Of a stretch of 42,529 nucleotides of DNA, positions 3,847-10,162 are shown piece by piece. Origin of the DNA: Treponema sp. (GTDB lineage: Bacteria; Spirochaetota; Spirochaetia; Treponematales; Treponemataceae); assembly GCA_016283615.1 (NCBI GenBank), contig JAEENG010000073.1:1-42529 (forward strand). The letters are read 5' to 3'. Both the position numbers and the translations under genes were made by a program. Every line of letters starts with the position of its first letter. Position 1 is the first letter of the stretch. The notes under the pieces are model-generated. The model was given only the letters and a program-made list of their open reading frames with translations. It did no database searches and was not told the origin of the DNA.

Positions 3847-5811
3847 TTAGTTGGAAACGGTTGTTGTAAATTCAGTTGAATAGAATGTCTGTCCGTTGTA
3901 AATTCCAGCTGCCTGCAGGGTATAAGTTCCCTTAAATGGCAGGATTACTGTGTATGAGTAAGTAGATTGTGCTGAGCCGTCTGTCGGGACATTTACAGTT
4001 GACTGAACGTTTCCGTTAAGAAGGAATTTGAACTGTTCAAATTGAGAATTTGGTAATGAAGAACGGTCAACCGTAAGGGTAATATAAGTTCCTGCGGATA
4101 AGGTTGAAATTCCATTTGCGTTGGAACCTGTTCCCCAGGCAGAACCTGCGGCTGTTGCTCCATAGGTCAGATGTACAGAATCATTATCGATATAGACATC
4201 GGAAGAATTCTGCATTGTATAGGCTGCAACAAATGTTCTGTTTACAAAACTGTCAACACTTGTAATTTCAATCTGTGTAGAGTCACCGTAGGCAAACCAC
4301 TTGCTCCATGGCTGATCCAGAGTTGAATAATATAATACCGGCCAGTCATTCTGACTTGCAAATGTCGGGTCAGAAGGGTCTGCAATTTCCGCCGGCGTCA
4401 GAAGTGATGTAGCTGAGCCTGTGTAAATGTGATATTCGTTATAATACTGTCCTTCGTGTGCGGTGCCGCGGTTTGTGAGCATGGTTCCGTCAGCAAGATT
4501 GTAAGATAAAACAAATGTATTTACACGGGTATATGGTGAAGAATCTGTCGCGCCAAATCCGGTGAGTTCACCGTAATCGCTGTCATCAGCGATATCAGTA
4601 GAAGTAATGCGTGAAACACTGCTGGATGAACCGAAGGAGTTAACGGAATACAGTTCAATATCATAGAGCTTTCCGGTAGCAAGTTTAAGAACATATTCTT
4701 CGCTTCCTGACCAGAGGGAGCCTCCGATGTAACCCACACCGTCCTGGGCAAAGGTAACGGAAGAAAACCTTTTACTGCCATCAGTCGGTTCACTGTACTG
4801 GCCTGTAAGCGTTGTCGTAGTGCCTGTTGTAGCTGTATTTGACGCATAGGAGCGCAGTTTGAGCACAAAATATTCTTCATTTGTTGAAACATCATCCCAG
4901 CGGATTACAGCATTATATGAATCGGCCGTTAATGTTGAATCAATTCTGTGAAGCGTTAAATTTTGCGGTGCTGCAGGTTTTGTTGAGAGAATGTTTGGGA
5001 TTGTGATTGTTTTTGTAGTCTGGCGTCCAGGTTCAATTACAAGCAGATCACTCCAGAATCCTGAACGCTTTGTTACTGAATTTTCCGTATAGAAAAATTC
5101 AACTGTAAGAATGTAAGAACCCGGGTTCATCAGGTTTCTTTGAGCCGTATATCCTTCGCCAAGCCATTTTGCCAGCTCTGTGGTGTCTCCGGTGGAAAAG
5201 AAACTGTATATTTCATGGCCGGTTAACGGGTCACAGATTTTTCCTGATACGGAACTTGCCATCTGGTTAAAGGTAGCAGCTCCGTCTGAGTTATATTTAA
5301 ATGTCAGCGAGCAGCTGCCCTGAGTAGATACCTCGGCACTTGTTAAGACAAAAGCAACGGTTGTAATGTAACTTGTGTCGACGGTTGCATATCCGCGCAA
5401 AACTTCTGTTGTGCCTGCAGCATCACTATATGCGTGGAGTACAAAATTCCATACAGAAGGCTTGAGACCGACTATTGTACCTGTACCGTCGTTTGCTATT
5501 GCGATTGAATTTGAATAGAAATCACCGTCATAATTTTCTCCTTCGATTATAAACTTTCTAACATCTTCAAGAAGATAGGTCGAAGGTGCGACAGTTTTTG
5601 CAACTGACACATTTGAATTCTGACTGTAATTTGTGATGACAATGGAAACTTCATCATCCTGAGAATTTGAGATTAAAGCACCCTGTATAACATTTGAACA
5701 GCCTGTAACAGACAGCAAAACGAGCATTGCAATAACGGTATAAGTATCGTTAAAGCAATGCTTTATGCGAGATGCTGTTCTGTTAAAAAAGTTCAAAAAT
5801 AACCTGTGCAT
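3847..5811 (-). CDS. Large lipoprotein with fibronectin-III-like domain (paralogue of the next upstream gene)
   Basis: Predicted secreted lipoprotein of 654 aa, function unknown. The N-terminus has a basic segment, a hydrophobic stretch and a lipobox ending SVTGC. The body is rich in S, T, Y and G, typical of beta-sandwich surface proteins. A segment beginning APQNLTLHRIDS and containing AVIRWDDVSTNEEYFVLKLR looks like a fibronectin type III strand pattern and matches the same place in the neighbouring lipoprotein (APTLLAAQLMDG, LFWQDNAKNEESFELFIRKF). I chose the ATG at 5811; an in-frame TTG at 5853 lies inside a GC-rich hairpin and has no ribosome site. It is the last gene of a three-lipoprotein operon. 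No clear terminator follows. Confidence 0.8.
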   Translation of the reverse strand: MHRLFLNFFNRTASRIKHCFNDTYTVIAMLVLLSVTGCSNVIQGALISNSQDDEVSIVITNYSQNSNVSVAKTVAPSTYLLEDVRKFIIEGENYDGDFYSNSIAIANDGTGTIVGLKPSVWNFVLHAYSDAAGTTEVLRGYATVDTSYITTVAFVLTSAEVSTQGSCSLTFKYNSDGAATFNQMASSVSGKICDPLTGHEIYSFFSTGDTTELAKWLGEGYTAQRNLMNPGSYILTVEFFYTENSVTKRSGFWSDLLVIEPGRQTTKTITIPNILSTKPAAPQNLTLHRIDSTLTADSYNAVIRWDDVSTNEEYFVLKLRSYASNTATTGTTTTLTGQYSEPTDGSKRFSSVTFAQDGVGYIGGSLWSGSEEYVLKLATGKLYDIELYSVNSFGSSSSVSRITSTDIADDSDYGELTGFGATDSSPYTRVNTFVLSYNLADGTMLTNRGTAHEGQYYNEYHIYTGSATSLLTPAEIADPSDPTFASQNDWPVLYYSTLDQPWSKWFAYGDSTQIEITSVDSFVNRTFVAAYTMQNSSDVYIDNDSVHLTYGATAAGSAWGTGSNANGISTLSAGTYITLTVDRSSLPNSQFEQFKFLLNGNVQSTVNVPTDGSAQSTYSYTVILPFKGTYTLQAAGIYNGQTFYSTEFTTTVSN

Positions 5812-5839
5812 TTTAAAACCCAAAAAAGTTCTGCCAGAC

Positions 5840-5866
5840 CCCGGTTCCGGCAAAGCCGGAACCGGG
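5840..5866 (-). repeat. GC-rich perfect hairpin between two lipoprotein genes
   Basis: Arms CCCGGTTCCGGC and GCCGGAACCGGG (12 bp, perfect) enclose a 3-nt AAA loop. It sits between the stop of the 5897-7972 gene and the start of the 3847-5811 gene. In the direction of transcription a CTTTTTT tract follows only about 12 nt later, so it may be a leaky terminator or an RNA-stabilising hairpin that sets the ratio of the two lipoproteins. Confidence 0.65.
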
Positions 5867-5896
5867 ACCAGGTAAAACCAGATAAACTAATTAAAA

Positions 5897-7972
5897 TTAG
5901 TTGTCTTTGTTAATGTAGAACGATGCACTTGCACTTTCTCCTGTTGCAGTGTATGCGTCTACGCGGATACAAGTTGAACTTCCCATCGGGAGTCTACTTG
6001 TAGAGAAGCTTGTAAATGTAAGGGATTCAGCATAGAGCTTGTTGTCATACTGAACATCTCCTACCCACAATGCATATCTTACAAAGATCGGGTTGGTTGT
6101 TACCTTAACATAAACAAACTGTTCGTCTCCACCACGGGCAACTGTAATAGTACCGTTTTTACATGCTGTACCACTTGCGGCTCCTGTTGCAGCGTTTGCA
6201 TAGTATGCGTCAACATTGGTATCAGAGAATAACTCATGAGCAAGCTGGGCAATTGTTGTGCTTGTAATGGTGATATCACCTGTTGTAGCACCGTAAAGTG
6301 CCATAACAGTGAAGTTTCCATATGCATTTGTGTTGTAAGTTACTGCAGTAGCAGTTAATGGAGTAGAACTTTCTGTAGGACTAATCCACTTTGTATATGG
6401 AACAGAATCTCTGAGAAGAGTGTTTGTTGAACCGTCGATTACTATTAACGGAATATATTTACCTGCATCACCTTCGCCATCAGTAAAAAGTTTATACGGT
6501 TTGTATTCAACATAGTTAACGCCTGTAAATATGTGACTTACAGCTTCGGAAGAGTCAAAGTCAACATCAGGGAGTGTCAGTACACCGCCATCAAGCTGGT
6601 ATGTAATCTTAACCATGCTGATGTGATTCCATTTAGAATCTGTACCGACTCCGTAACCGGTTACATATTTATCATCGAGAGTCGACATAAATGTTTTTGA
6701 ACTTGTAGGAGCCGGAGCTTCGTTAGTAGGTGTAGCGATTTCGAGCTGTGTATGATTTGCTGAATCGGCAACGCGTACACATGATGCTGAAGTACCGATA
6801 GAGTTAACAGCACGAATCTGTACATCCCAGAGTGTTCCTGTAGGGAAACTCAATACAAGTTCTTCACTTCCTGCAAACAATGAACCTGAAACATATTTGA
6901 TAACGTTTTGTGTACCTGTAGCAGCAGCTCCGCTACCAAAGTATTTAGTTCCATCGAGACCAAGAATTGTACCGTAGTCGTACTTCATTTCCTGCAGGCT
7001 TGGAGTAAATTCTGCATCTGCTGTCTTAGATGTATAAGCAGTAGTAGTGTCAGTAAATTTACGGATAAACAGTTCAAAAGATTCTTCGTTCTTTGCATTA
7101 TCCTGCCAGAAGAGGCGGACATTGTAGAAGTCTTCGTCTTCAGTGCCGTCCATGAGCTGGGCTGCAAGAAGAGTAGGAGCTGCAGGAGCTGTTTTGATAA
7201 TATTGTCGTCGAGAATGAGTTCACCTTCTGTCTTACGACCTGGTTCGATAACGATTTTTTCAGAAGCAAAACCAAGCTTTGTTGTGCCTTGTTTAATGTA
7301 AACACCGAAGGTATAAGAACCAGGAGTTACACCTGTTGCATCTGCTGTAAAGCCGGATGCTTCAGCAATTGCTTTAGAGTTTTCTGCAGTCTGGTCTGTA
7401 ATGGCAGTTCCATCAACACCTAAAGTACCTGCCGGAACACCTGTCAATTCATTATACAGACCCCAGCTGATTACATAAGAATCTTTCCAGGCTCCGCCTT
7501 CATATTTAATAACAATTTCGTAAGAACCGGTAGTTACAAGACCGATAGAAGACAGGTTGAAAGTTACTGTATCCTGGCCTGTACTCTTGAGGGTACATAC
7601 AGATGTTCCCTGCAGAAGCTTACCGCCTTCGTCGTTTACGGCATAAAGAGTTAAAGTCCAGTCATCAAGTGCAAGATCGGTAATGCTTGCAGACCCGTCT
7701 TCGATAGCATCTTTTTCGATATCGGTAGCAGCGAGAGTGTAGCCTTCTTTTGATTCACCTGTAATTACATAGTGATCAATTTCATCGCTGTCGACAGTCA
7801 ATGTATCCGGTGCAAGAGTAGCACGGGAAATACTTCCGAGAGACAAGTGAACAGTTGCTTTGTCTCCGATGTTTTTGCCGGATAAAGTACCTGTAGTAAG
7901 GTTGTTACATCCGACAATGACCAACATTGTGGCAATTGCAAAGATTGCCACTGCTTTGATTTTTTTAACCAT
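5897..7972 (-). CDS. Large lipoprotein with fibronectin-III-like domain
   Basis: Predicted lipoprotein of 691 aa, function unknown. A short basic N-terminus (MVKKIK) precedes a hydrophobic stretch and the lipobox VIVGC, giving a diacylated Cys near residue 22. The mature protein is rich in T, S, A, G and Y. A fibronectin-like segment (APTLLAAQLMDG then FYNVRLFWQDN) aligns with the downstream lipoprotein at 3847-5811, so the two are tandem paralogues. The start at 7972 is fixed by a strong Shine-Dalgarno (GGAGGT, plus-strand 7979-7984); a longer frame to 8035 would overlap the upstream gene and lacks a ribosome site. It is the middle gene of the operon, 44 nt after the small lipoprotein. Confidence 0.85.
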   Translation of the reverse strand: MVKKIKAVAIFAIATMLVIVGCNNLTTGTLSGKNIGDKATVHLSLGSISRATLAPDTLTVDSDEIDHYVITGESKEGYTLAATDIEKDAIEDGSASITDLALDDWTLTLYAVNDEGGKLLQGTSVCTLKSTGQDTVTFNLSSIGLVTTGSYEIVIKYEGGAWKDSYVISWGLYNELTGVPAGTLGVDGTAITDQTAENSKAIAEASGFTADATGVTPGSYTFGVYIKQGTTKLGFASEKIVIEPGRKTEGELILDDNIIKTAPAAPTLLAAQLMDGTEDEDFYNVRLFWQDNAKNEESFELFIRKFTDTTTAYTSKTADAEFTPSLQEMKYDYGTILGLDGTKYFGSGAAATGTQNVIKYVSGSLFAGSEELVLSFPTGTLWDVQIRAVNSIGTSASCVRVADSANHTQLEIATPTNEAPAPTSSKTFMSTLDDKYVTGYGVGTDSKWNHISMVKITYQLDGGVLTLPDVDFDSSEAVSHIFTGVNYVEYKPYKLFTDGEGDAGKYIPLIVIDGSTNTLLRDSVPYTKWISPTESSTPLTATAVTYNTNAYGNFTVMALYGATTGDITITSTTIAQLAHELFSDTNVDAYYANAATGAASGTACKNGTITVARGGDEQFVYVKVTTNPIFVRYALWVGDVQYDNKLYAESLTFTSFSTSRLPMGSSTCIRVDAYTATGESASASFYINKDN

Positions 7973-8016: not shown

Positions 8017-8457
8017 TTAATATACATAAAGCCATGCGGTGTCCTTTATGATTTCACCGCTTGTTCGGGTAATGGAAACAGTAAGTTTATAGGTGCCCCA
8101 GCGTTTAATGTTGCTGTTCCTGATATACAGGCTTAATACTCTGTTTGCGCCTAAAATATACTGTTTTCCAACAGGAATATCGTTTGCGTTTTCATCTACC
8201 TCCGCTGTCCAGGTGTAATTTACGCCCCCCGTAGGGGCCGTAAGACACAAGGTTGTTGTATAACTTACGGCATAGTAAGGTCTTAGAATATCCTCGGCGA
8301 TAACATCATCAAGGGTATAACTTTGCTGTACCGTAGCCACTTTAAAATTACTGTTGTAATCTTCAATTAGAGTGTCGATTGAATTGGAGCATCCGCATAA
8401 AGACAGTCCGGCGCACAAAAATGCGGTTGCAAGAACAACAATTTTACATTTTGACAT
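8017..8457 (-). CDS. Small lipoprotein, first gene of the lipoprotein operon
   Basis: Predicted 146-aa lipoprotein. MSKCKIVVL begins a hydrophobic signal and the lipobox ends LSLCGC. The rest has an alternating beta pattern (YTWTAEVDE, YKLTVSITRTSG) suggesting one Ig/PKD-like beta sandwich; I recognise no named family. The ATG at 8457 is supported by GGAGGA 9 nt upstream. The longer open frame to 8553 runs through a terminator-like stem and is rejected. It is co-directional with the two larger lipoproteins and probably co-transcribed with them from the leader at 8458-8700. Confidence 0.8.
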   Translation of the reverse strand: MSKCKIVVLATAFLCAGLSLCGCSNSIDTLIEDYNSNFKVATVQQSYTLDDVIAEDILRPYYAVSYTTTLCLTAPTGGVNYTWTAEVDENANDIPVGKQYILGANRVLSLYIRNSNIKRWGTYKLTVSITRTSGEIIKDTAWLYVY

Positions 8458-8510
8458 CGTTATCTGTCCTCCATACGAGATTTTTGAACTGAAAAGGAAG
8501 TAAAAAAGAC

Positions 8511-8595
8511 AAAAAAAAGGAATTGTCGCATGGCAACAGAGTTTTTCTGTCAATTTTACGCACTTTTCAGTGCTCCACCCAACAATTCCTTTTTT
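8511..8595 (-). promoter_or_regulatory. Structured 5' leader with terminator-like stem upstream of the lipoprotein operon
   Basis: On the minus strand a perfect 14-bp outer stem (AAAAAAGGAATTGT, plus-strand 8513-8526, with ACAATTCCTTTTTT, 8582-8595) closes a 55-nt internal region. That region can form two small hairpins: GCACT-GAAA-AGTGC, with a GNRA tetraloop, and ACAG/CTGT. The outer stem ends in a run of eight U, so the whole is a possible attenuator about 55 nt before the first start codon. No other minus-strand gene ends just upstream that would need a terminator here. I could not match it to a known riboswitch class. Confidence 0.5.
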
Positions 8596-8789
8596 ATAAG
8601 AAAAAGGATAAATCTCCCCGAAACAGTATCGGTAAGATTAGAACTGAACTTTAATAAATTCTTAAGAATTCAAATTTTTTAAAGAAATTGATTATCCCCT
8701 CATTCTGACAAATTTTAACGCCAATGGGGTTTAAAACAACATTATAAGATAATGTTATATAAAAAAGAGTTAAAATCTAATTGGCGTGA
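8596..8789. other. AT-rich divergent intergenic region with palindromes
   Basis: No gene is seen here. It holds a perfect 14-bp palindrome AATTCTTAAGAATT (8657-8670) and a hairpin AACATTAT-AAG-ATAATGTT (about 8740-8758). An inverted pair ACGCCAAT / ATTGGCGT also flanks the second hairpin. These are candidate operators between the lipoprotein operon (minus) and the 8802 gene (plus). No strong -35/-10 pair for the minus-strand operon could be fixed. Confidence 0.4.
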
Positions 8790-8801: not shown

Positions 8802-9221
8802 ATGAAACTAAAGGCTTTGATTGAATTTTTATACGCGGACGGCAGATTTTTTCTGAGTTTTATTGCCATATGTCTTTGCTGCATTCTTTGCGGGGTTTTG
8901 CTTACGGTAATTCTGTACACAAAGAAAAATCAAAAAATAAGAAAAGATGCGATAAAACGCTCCAGGGCTGTTCTTGGAGGACTTGCCGGCGAGCAGATTG
9001 CACCGTATCTGCCGGGCTTTCCCTGCAATCCGGCTGAAGTGCGCTTTGTGGGAAAACCTGTTGATTACATAGGTTTTGAAGGAGCGGCTACTGGTGAAGA
9101 AATAAAGGAAATTCTATTTATAGAAGTTAAAACAGGGCAGAGTCAGCTTTCAGAGCGTGAAAGGCAGATAAAAAACGCGGTCGAGAGTGGCCGCGTCCGT
9201 TATGTTGAATACCGTCTTTAA
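8802..9221 (+). CDS. Membrane-anchored Holliday-junction-resolvase-like protein
   Basis: 139-aa protein with one N-terminal transmembrane helix (about 19-41) followed by a cytoplasmic domain resembling the bacterial 'endonuclease related to archaeal Holliday junction resolvase' family (PF10107 type). Typical blocks are RSRAVLGGLAGEQIAPYLPG, the R-F-x-G-x-P-V-D-Y-I segment, and FIEVKTGQSQLSERERQI, where E-x-K resembles a PD-(D/E)XK nuclease core. The membrane anchor is usual in this family and activity has not generally been shown. Its stop codon overlaps that of convergent argC within the shared bases TTAA. The mRNA is probably leaderless. Confidence 0.85.
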   Translation: MKLKALIEFLYADGRFFLSFIAICLCCILCGVLLTVILYTKKNQKIRKDAIKRSRAVLGGLAGEQIAPYLPGFPCNPAEVRFVGKPVDYIGFEGAATGEEIKEILFIEVKTGQSQLSERERQIKNAVESGRVRYVEYRL

Positions 9222-10162
9222 AGTCCGGTTCCTTCGTCAATGCCCATCATGATGTTCATGCACTGAACGGCAGCACCGCTGGCGCCTTTGCCGAGATTGT
9301 CAAAACGGCTGGTCAGAACAAGGCGTTCGTCATTGCCGCAGACAAAAATCTGCATGTTGTTTGTGCCGGCGAGAGTGTTGGACGGGATAAAGTTTTCTGT
9401 AAGAATGTCGGTGCCCATAAAGTCTGCCGCGTGAACAAAGCGGCTTGAGTTATAGTGCTCTTTAAAGAGTTCTGCAAGCTGTTCGCCTGTCAGTTTTTTC
9501 TTCATGAGGCGTGTGTGGATTCCCACAGAAACTGTCATTCCGGCATAATAGTCGCAGACATAAGGATCAAATATCGGTTTGTAGGCAAGTCCGCTCACTT
9601 TCTGCATTTCCGGAAGGTGTTTGTGTTCCTGGGTTAATGCGTAGAGGCGCGGGCTTTTGAACTGAATGTCACGATTCGGGTCTTCGTATTGTGCGATTCC
9701 CTTTTTGCCGGCTCCTGAATAACCTGATACAGCGTGGCAGACAATCGGGTAGTCCGGGGCAATAATTCCATTTTTTACAAGGGGGTATACAAGTGAAGCA
9801 AAACCTGATGCGTAACATCCCGGGCCCGCAACACGGCTGGAAGATTGAATTCTTGATCTGTGTTCAGCGGACAATTCCGGAAAACCGTATGCCCAGTCGT
9901 CGTTTGTTCTGTGGGCAGTTGAAGCGTCAATAATTCTTACTTTCGGGTTGGTGCAGAGTTTTACGGCTTCAATTGAAGCGGCGTCCGGAAGACACAAAAA
10001 AGTAAAATCCGAAGCATTTATCATTTTGGCGCGTTCTGCGCTGTCCTTGCGTTTTTCTTCGTCGATAAGTAAAAGTTCAATATCGTCGCGGTTCTGGAAC
10101 CGTTCGTAAATTTTGAGGCCTGTAGTGCCGTCTTTTCCATCAATAAAAACTTTGTATTTCAT
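9218..10162 (-). CDS. argC: N-acetyl-gamma-glutamyl-phosphate reductase (short type-2 form)
   Basis: Third step of arginine/ornithine synthesis: NADPH-dependent reduction of N-acetylglutamyl-5-phosphate to the semialdehyde, in the cytoplasm. The N-terminal KVFIDGKDGTTGLKIYER is the Rossmann nucleotide-binding start. GPGCYASG at about 115-122 holds the catalytic Cys, and SGYSGAGKKG follows in the substrate-binding part. Length of 314 aa fits the short form rather than the 340-350 aa long form. No other arginine gene is nearby. TATAAT lies 6 nt before the ATG, with TTGCCC 17 nt upstream of it and no Shine-Dalgarno, so the mRNA is probably leaderless. It is divergent from the OmpA-domain gene. 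Confidence 0.92.
   Translation of the reverse strand: MKYKVFIDGKDGTTGLKIYERFQNRDDIELLLIDEEKRKDSAERAKMINASDFTFLCLPDAASIEAVKLCTNPKVRIIDASTAHRTNDDWAYGFPELSAEHRSRIQSSSRVAGPGCYASGFASLVYPLVKNGIIAPDYPIVCHAVSGYSGAGKKGIAQYEDPNRDIQFKSPRLYALTQEHKHLPEMQKVSGLAYKPIFDPYVCDYYAGMTVSVGIHTRLMKKKLTGEQLAELFKEHYNSSRFVHAADFMGTDILTENFIPSNTLAGTNNMQIFVCGNDERLVLTSRFDNLGKGASGAAVQCMNIMMGIDEGTGL

Follow-up and report, generated by a model that had tools for sequence, protein, structure and literature searches.

A branched, terminator-like structure confined to one lineage in the probable leader of a Treponema lipoprotein operon

The window, which is the whole stretch of DNA analysed here, is one contig of 42,529 nt from a Treponema genome. 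The host genome contained 2.36 Mb in 209 contigs. The window encodes an operon of two lipoproteins on the minus strand. Neither protein was assigned to a family when Pfam and NCBIfam were searched.

8017-8457, minus strand: small lipoprotein gene, 146 aa, N-terminus of lipobox type, operon gene 1
about 5897-7972, minus strand: large lipoprotein gene, MVKKIKAVAIFAIATMLVIVGCNN..., operon gene 2

A yraN-like gene (8802-9221, plus strand; Pfam Endonuc_Holl) is divergent from the operon and is separated from the small lipoprotein gene by an intergenic region of 342 nt. The argC gene was located at 9218-10162 on the minus strand. Its apparent terminator (ACGCGG...CCGCGT followed by U5, 9196-9170, minus strand) falls within the 3' end of the convergent yraN-like gene. 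Another apparent intrinsic terminator, a strong GC-rich hairpin followed by U6 (5822-5880, minus strand), lies inside the gene cluster, between the large lipoprotein gene and the next lipoprotein gene (3847-5853).

From roughly 200 genomes of the genus Treponema, we gathered homologues of the small lipoprotein. Relatives recovered by name are metagenome-assembled Treponema genomes, including one that came from the stomach of a ruminant. A good match to the leader DNA was retrieved from one genome only, the sister genome G135 (UBA9738), with 97% identity in the leader and 99% in the protein. The leader sequence is single-copy in the host genome. We rejected the idea that it is a repeat or mobile element, as this genome has one copy.

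The intergenic region contains a branched element of 85 nt on the minus strand (8595-8511), in which two small hairpins join the closing stem at a three-way junction. This stem, P1, pairs 5'-AAAAAAGGAAUUGU (8595-8582) with ACAAUUCCUUUUUU (8526-8513), an uninterrupted 14 bp around 55 nt. Two further pairs, the wobble U8581-G8527 and G8580-C8528, lengthen it to 16 bp. An inner pairing of GUGG with CCAU (8578-8575 with 8533-8530) extends it further.

8580-8595, minus strand: P1 5' arm (A-tract and GGAAUUGUUG), from the predicted fold
8560-8573, minus strand: P2 hairpin GCACU-GAAA-AGUGC with a GAAA loop, from the predicted fold
8535-8551, minus strand: P3 hairpin GACAGA-AAAAC-UCUGUU with a five-base loop, from the predicted fold
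8513-8528, minus strand: P1 3' arm, with three substitutions and one neighbouring base lost in the sister genome
8511-8518, minus strand: U8 tract of the terminator, read from the sequence; U7 in the sister genome

The earlier note had described a perfect 14-bp stem around 55 nt, two sub-hairpins (one with a GAAA loop) and a U8 tract. All of these are present, on the minus strand, which the note had not specified. It had placed the first gene about 55 nt away, and we measured 53 nt from the end of the U-run to the ATG of the small lipoprotein (8457). Its statement that no upstream gene needs a terminator here also agrees with the gene order, in which argC has an apparent hairpin and U5 of its own and the yraN-like gene is divergent.

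The fold is far stronger than expected by chance. The RNA from 8604 to 8508 has a minimum free energy (MFE) of -37.4 kcal/mol (z -6.6), which was equalled by 0 of 200 dinucleotide shuffles. Perfect inverted repeats in the intergenic region are at most 14 bp long, a length that 0 of 200 shuffles reached (maximum 12). The stem-plus-U-run score is 41 for the window, and the shuffle maximum is 25. At the U-tract, the best fold that lacks P1 reaches -20.6 kcal/mol, which gives the fold with P1 (-37.4 kcal/mol) an advantage of about 17 kcal/mol. The element has the features of an intrinsic terminator, namely a stable G+C-containing hairpin and a U8 tract immediately 3' of the stem.

The plus strand also folds like a terminator, with a stem followed by U6 (-26.0 kcal/mol, z -4.9). 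The A-tract mirrors the U-tract closely, and the element could act in both directions. It might then be an ordinary terminator or insulator that is unconnected to the regulation of the operon, blocking antisense transcripts that leave the operon before they reach the yraN-like gene, as well as stray ones from the opposite direction. We judge this unlikely. The minus-strand fold is the stronger (-37.4 versus -26.0 kcal/mol), there is no plus-strand gene upstream, and argC apparently has its own terminator.

A candidate promoter precedes the hairpin.

8692-8717, minus strand: candidate promoter, sigma28-like TAAA-N14-GGGGATAA, matching at 10 of 12 positions and overlapping a sigma70-like site

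The sigma28-like site lies 234 nt upstream of the ATG. Taken alone, this 10/12 match is weak evidence for a promoter, and 24 of 500 shuffles match as well or better. The overlapping sigma70-like site (TTAAAA-16-GATAAT, 8718-8691) is the only one on the minus strand of the intergenic region, and it is also upstream of the hairpin. Sigma70-like sites were not enriched in the scanned region overall. The closest homologues with their own promoters (L030, L032, L033, L035 and L036) all score 11 to 12 of 12 for a sigma28-type site (best shuffled score, 8). Four of the five carry the site 268 to 342 nt before the ATG; in the close homologue L036, the leader is just 44 nt long. Given the promoter-like site upstream of the hairpin and the sigma28-type promoters of the homologues, mostly with long leaders, the element is probably located inside an mRNA leader of about 230 nt with a putative start near the site. 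A mapped sigma28 promoter precedes flaB2 of T. denticola, with the -10 sequence CCGATAA and a 124-nt leader (PMC9481697).

Sigma28-type sites are common in the family as a whole. Among members with their own promoter, 23 of 28 score 10 to 12. Perfect sigma28 (FliA)-type promoters, TAAA-N15/16-GCCGATAA, were observed 44 to 279 nt from the start codon of many members (L030, L032, L033, L036, L078, L079, L095, L112, L125, L126, L129, L133 and others). The host genome contains three exact sites, each shortly upstream of a reading frame. This distribution suggests that the small-lipoprotein family is part of a motility-type regulon. Many other homologues (among them L031, L037, L038, L040 and L041) lie directly 3' of a gene of about 380 to 500 codons and often overlap its stop. 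These homologues adjoin the upstream gene and therefore have no leader of their own.

A start at the candidate promoter (8717-8692) and a stop at 8511 would also yield a separate small RNA of about 175 nt, with the element as its 3' end and a role in trans. Small RNAs and 3' ends have been described for Borrelia leaders (PMC10319736). We regard this as highly improbable, as the sequence is not conserved outside the sister genome.

Beyond the window, the element was clearly recognised in the sister genome only. The covariance model R2, built from the window and the sister, was run against 196 genomes. It scored the window at 125 bits and the sister at 113 bits, and everything else at 27 bits or less, the level expected from generic terminator hairpins across so many genomes. 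Stem-plus-U-run scoring covered 29 homologues with their own leaders. None of the next-closest homologues (38 to 49% identity) had a leader terminator above its own shuffles by this scoring. The distant members L039 and L125 exceeded their shuffles, at scores below that of the window. No conserved core was found in the leaders of other species. Clear R2 matches are restricted to two genomes, close homologues have no terminator above their shuffles and the L036 leader is only 44 nt, so the element, as judged from these comparisons, is not a conserved feature of the small-lipoprotein family and is confined to one lineage.

The earlier note had left the choice between an attenuator and a riboswitch, of an unclassified type, and had proposed an Rfam search and a search for covariation among homologous leaders. 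Rfam gave no match at the gathering threshold in the window or in 18 homologous loci. Permissive matches (microRNA, rimP leader and others) were below threshold and meaningless. R2 recognised the element in no homologous leader beyond the sister, and the changes in the sister are uncompensated. The note had also named lack of conservation in other species as the result that would count against its proposal, and such conservation is essentially lacking. The attenuator half of the proposal stands as the best reading, in the form of a leader terminator, given the promoter-like site upstream and the leaders of the homologues. The riboswitch half is not supported, in view of the absent Rfam match, the restriction to the window and sister, the damaged and uncompensated P1, and competing structures that are within chance.

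Two structures in other leaders were set aside. The leader of homologue L035 has a three-way junction that is similar by eye; it is not recognised by R2, and scoring finds no terminator. The G-rich motif GGGTGG, common to other leaders, belongs to a separate hairpin of another subgroup, and model R1 finds none in the host genome. This hairpin occurs about 180 to 255 nt before the start codon in L051, L057, L093, L106 and L127 and has a constant G-rich loop (GGGUGGGA..GG). In its stem, 93% of cells are paired and two pairs are changed on both sides, in five sequences only. R1 retrieved those five genomes from the 196, with one apparent chance match inside a gene.

The window and sister differ at 2.9% of columns over 6.1 kb. 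Within the 85-nt element, all of the differences are in or beside the P1 3' arm, and P2 and P3 are intact in both genomes. The arm reads CGACAATTCC-T8 in the window and GGACAATGAC-T7 in the sister. Each of the three substitutions in the sister disrupts one pair (G8580-C8528, A8587-U8521 and G8588-C8520), and the U-tract is shorter by one U. No compensatory changes were found in the sister P1. The predicted energy at the U-tract falls from -37.4 kcal/mol in the window to -26.1 kcal/mol in the sister. Because the sister P1 is damaged (about -26 kcal/mol) and uncompensated, strong termination appears not to be retained even between close relatives.

Of 14 change clusters over the 6.1 kb, only that in the P1 3' arm has an inverted copy nearby that accounts for it. 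Over 14 nt, the window sequence ACAATTCCTTTTTT matches the reverse complement of the P1 5' arm exactly; a separate C/G change falls outside the copied tract. RNA stems are known to arise, and to become perfect, through template switching (Monttinen and Loytynoja 2022, PMC8794818). The cluster resembles a footprint of template switching, whose direction two genomes leave unfixed, and both assemblies are apparently from metagenomes, where misassembly of inverted repeats can occur. The perfect P1 is probably recent, and it may have arisen when a template switch corrected an imperfect inverted repeat. Two more change clusters were observed at 8722-8784, between the divergent genes. The sites form an inverted repeat (ACGCCAAT/ATTGGCGT) in the window that is absent from the sister.

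The element may be read as a quasi-palindrome with little or no function, an imperfect inverted repeat perfected in this lineage by a replication template switch and with no selected regulatory role. The inverted copy (ACAATTCCTTTTTT) that explains only the P1 cluster of the 14, the known perfecting of stems by such switching (PMC8794818) and the lack of conservation past the sister genome are all consistent with this. But the stem lies exactly before U8, P2 and P3 are intact in both genomes, and termination would be expected whatever the origin of the stem; the direction of change is also not deducible from two genomes. We give this reading a minor share of the probability, and we consider it unlikely.

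Two alternative pairings could compete with the terminator.

8587-8608, minus strand: possible competing hairpin H0, UCCUUUUU-CUUAUA-AAAAAGGA, seen in the fold with the P1 3' arm blocked and overlapping the P1 5' arm
8488-8517, minus strand: downstream arm, predicted to pair with 8571-8542 (24/30) as an alternative to P2, P3 and the U-tract

A regulated attenuator or unclassified riboswitch would use H0 or the downstream pairing (8571-8542 with 8517-8488) to compete with the terminator, favoured by some signal. Both alternatives exist, and in the sister they form the MFE structure of the full leader. But both are within chance, H0 being equalled in 427 of 2000 shuffles (21%) and the downstream pairing in 3.6 to 9.2%. 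The downstream arm is made after the U-tract, which is too late for it to work as a classical antiterminator. There is no conserved core elsewhere and no Rfam family, and the 44-nt leader of L036 also argues against a switch. We consider such a switch quite improbable.

Upstream reading frames did not provide a regulatory element. The small lipoprotein has an open frame that extends its N-terminus to TTG 8553, and a 1-nt deletion in the sister breaks it. A Phe-rich frame (MRQFLFFVFFTSF..., from 8531) begins inside the 3' side of the terminator. It was rejected as a by-product of the U-tract, and it stops after three codons in the sister. No leader peptide with regulatory codons was found, and the TTG frames at 8585 and 8582 have no properly spaced ribosome site.

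The best explanation is a lineage-specific, branched intrinsic terminator in the leader, which would serve as a default attenuator, probably a leaky one, of the small and large lipoprotein operon. We give it an even chance of being correct. The sequence shows the predicted fold, the U-tract and the position before the gene; the start of transcription, the termination and its consequence are inferred. RNA polymerase would initiate near 8685. It would synthesise the A-rich arm, then P2 and P3, and then the complementary arm. The long P1 would close over the junction while the U8 tract emerges, and a fraction of transcripts would stop near 8511. Transcripts that read through would express the lipoproteins. 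This attenuator does not invoke a ligand or switch. Another apparent terminator, with U6, occurs elsewhere in the same gene cluster, so such signals are apparently in use here.

A bolder version combines several of these elements. The operon would be sigma28-driven and the attenuator regulated and fast evolving, with an upstream hairpin or late downstream pairing competing with the three-way-junction terminator. Template switching would toggle the perfection of P1, and hence expression, between lineages. We rate this version as very improbable.

If termination by the default attenuator is real, it may represent a simple DNA-level tuning of lipoprotein operon expression between close Treponema lineages. 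The case shows that a leader structure may be striking and statistically significant and yet not be conserved across species. A stem without mismatches does not by itself indicate an ancient RNA switch under selection, as a single template-switching step can produce it. The sigma28-type promoters before many family members suggest a link between the lipoproteins and the motility regulon. These promoters and the G-rich hairpin of the other subgroup are perhaps the better leads.

The element can be compared with three known systems. Riboswitches with a terminator expression platform likewise combine a three-way junction and a terminator stem within the leader. The element differs from them in having no conserved core, no Rfam match and no supported competing antiterminator, and its P1 is damaged in the nearest relative. 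Hairpins made by template switching (PMC8794818) likewise show a change cluster that turns one arm into an exact reverse complement of its partner, whereas here there are two genomes only and the direction of change is not fixed. Intrinsic (Rho-independent) terminators in leaders, where premature termination has been mapped in E. coli and Borrelia, likewise have a stable stem with an A-tract and an immediate U-tract, placed after a likely promoter and ahead of the first gene. Predicted Borrelia terminators have an average stem of about 7 and a loop of 11 nt (PMC10319736). Here, where termination is predicted, a stem of 14 to 16 bp closes a branched region of 55 nt instead of a short loop. Nothing found favours a new riboswitch, and the element appears to be a known kind of signal, a strong terminator-like leader structure.
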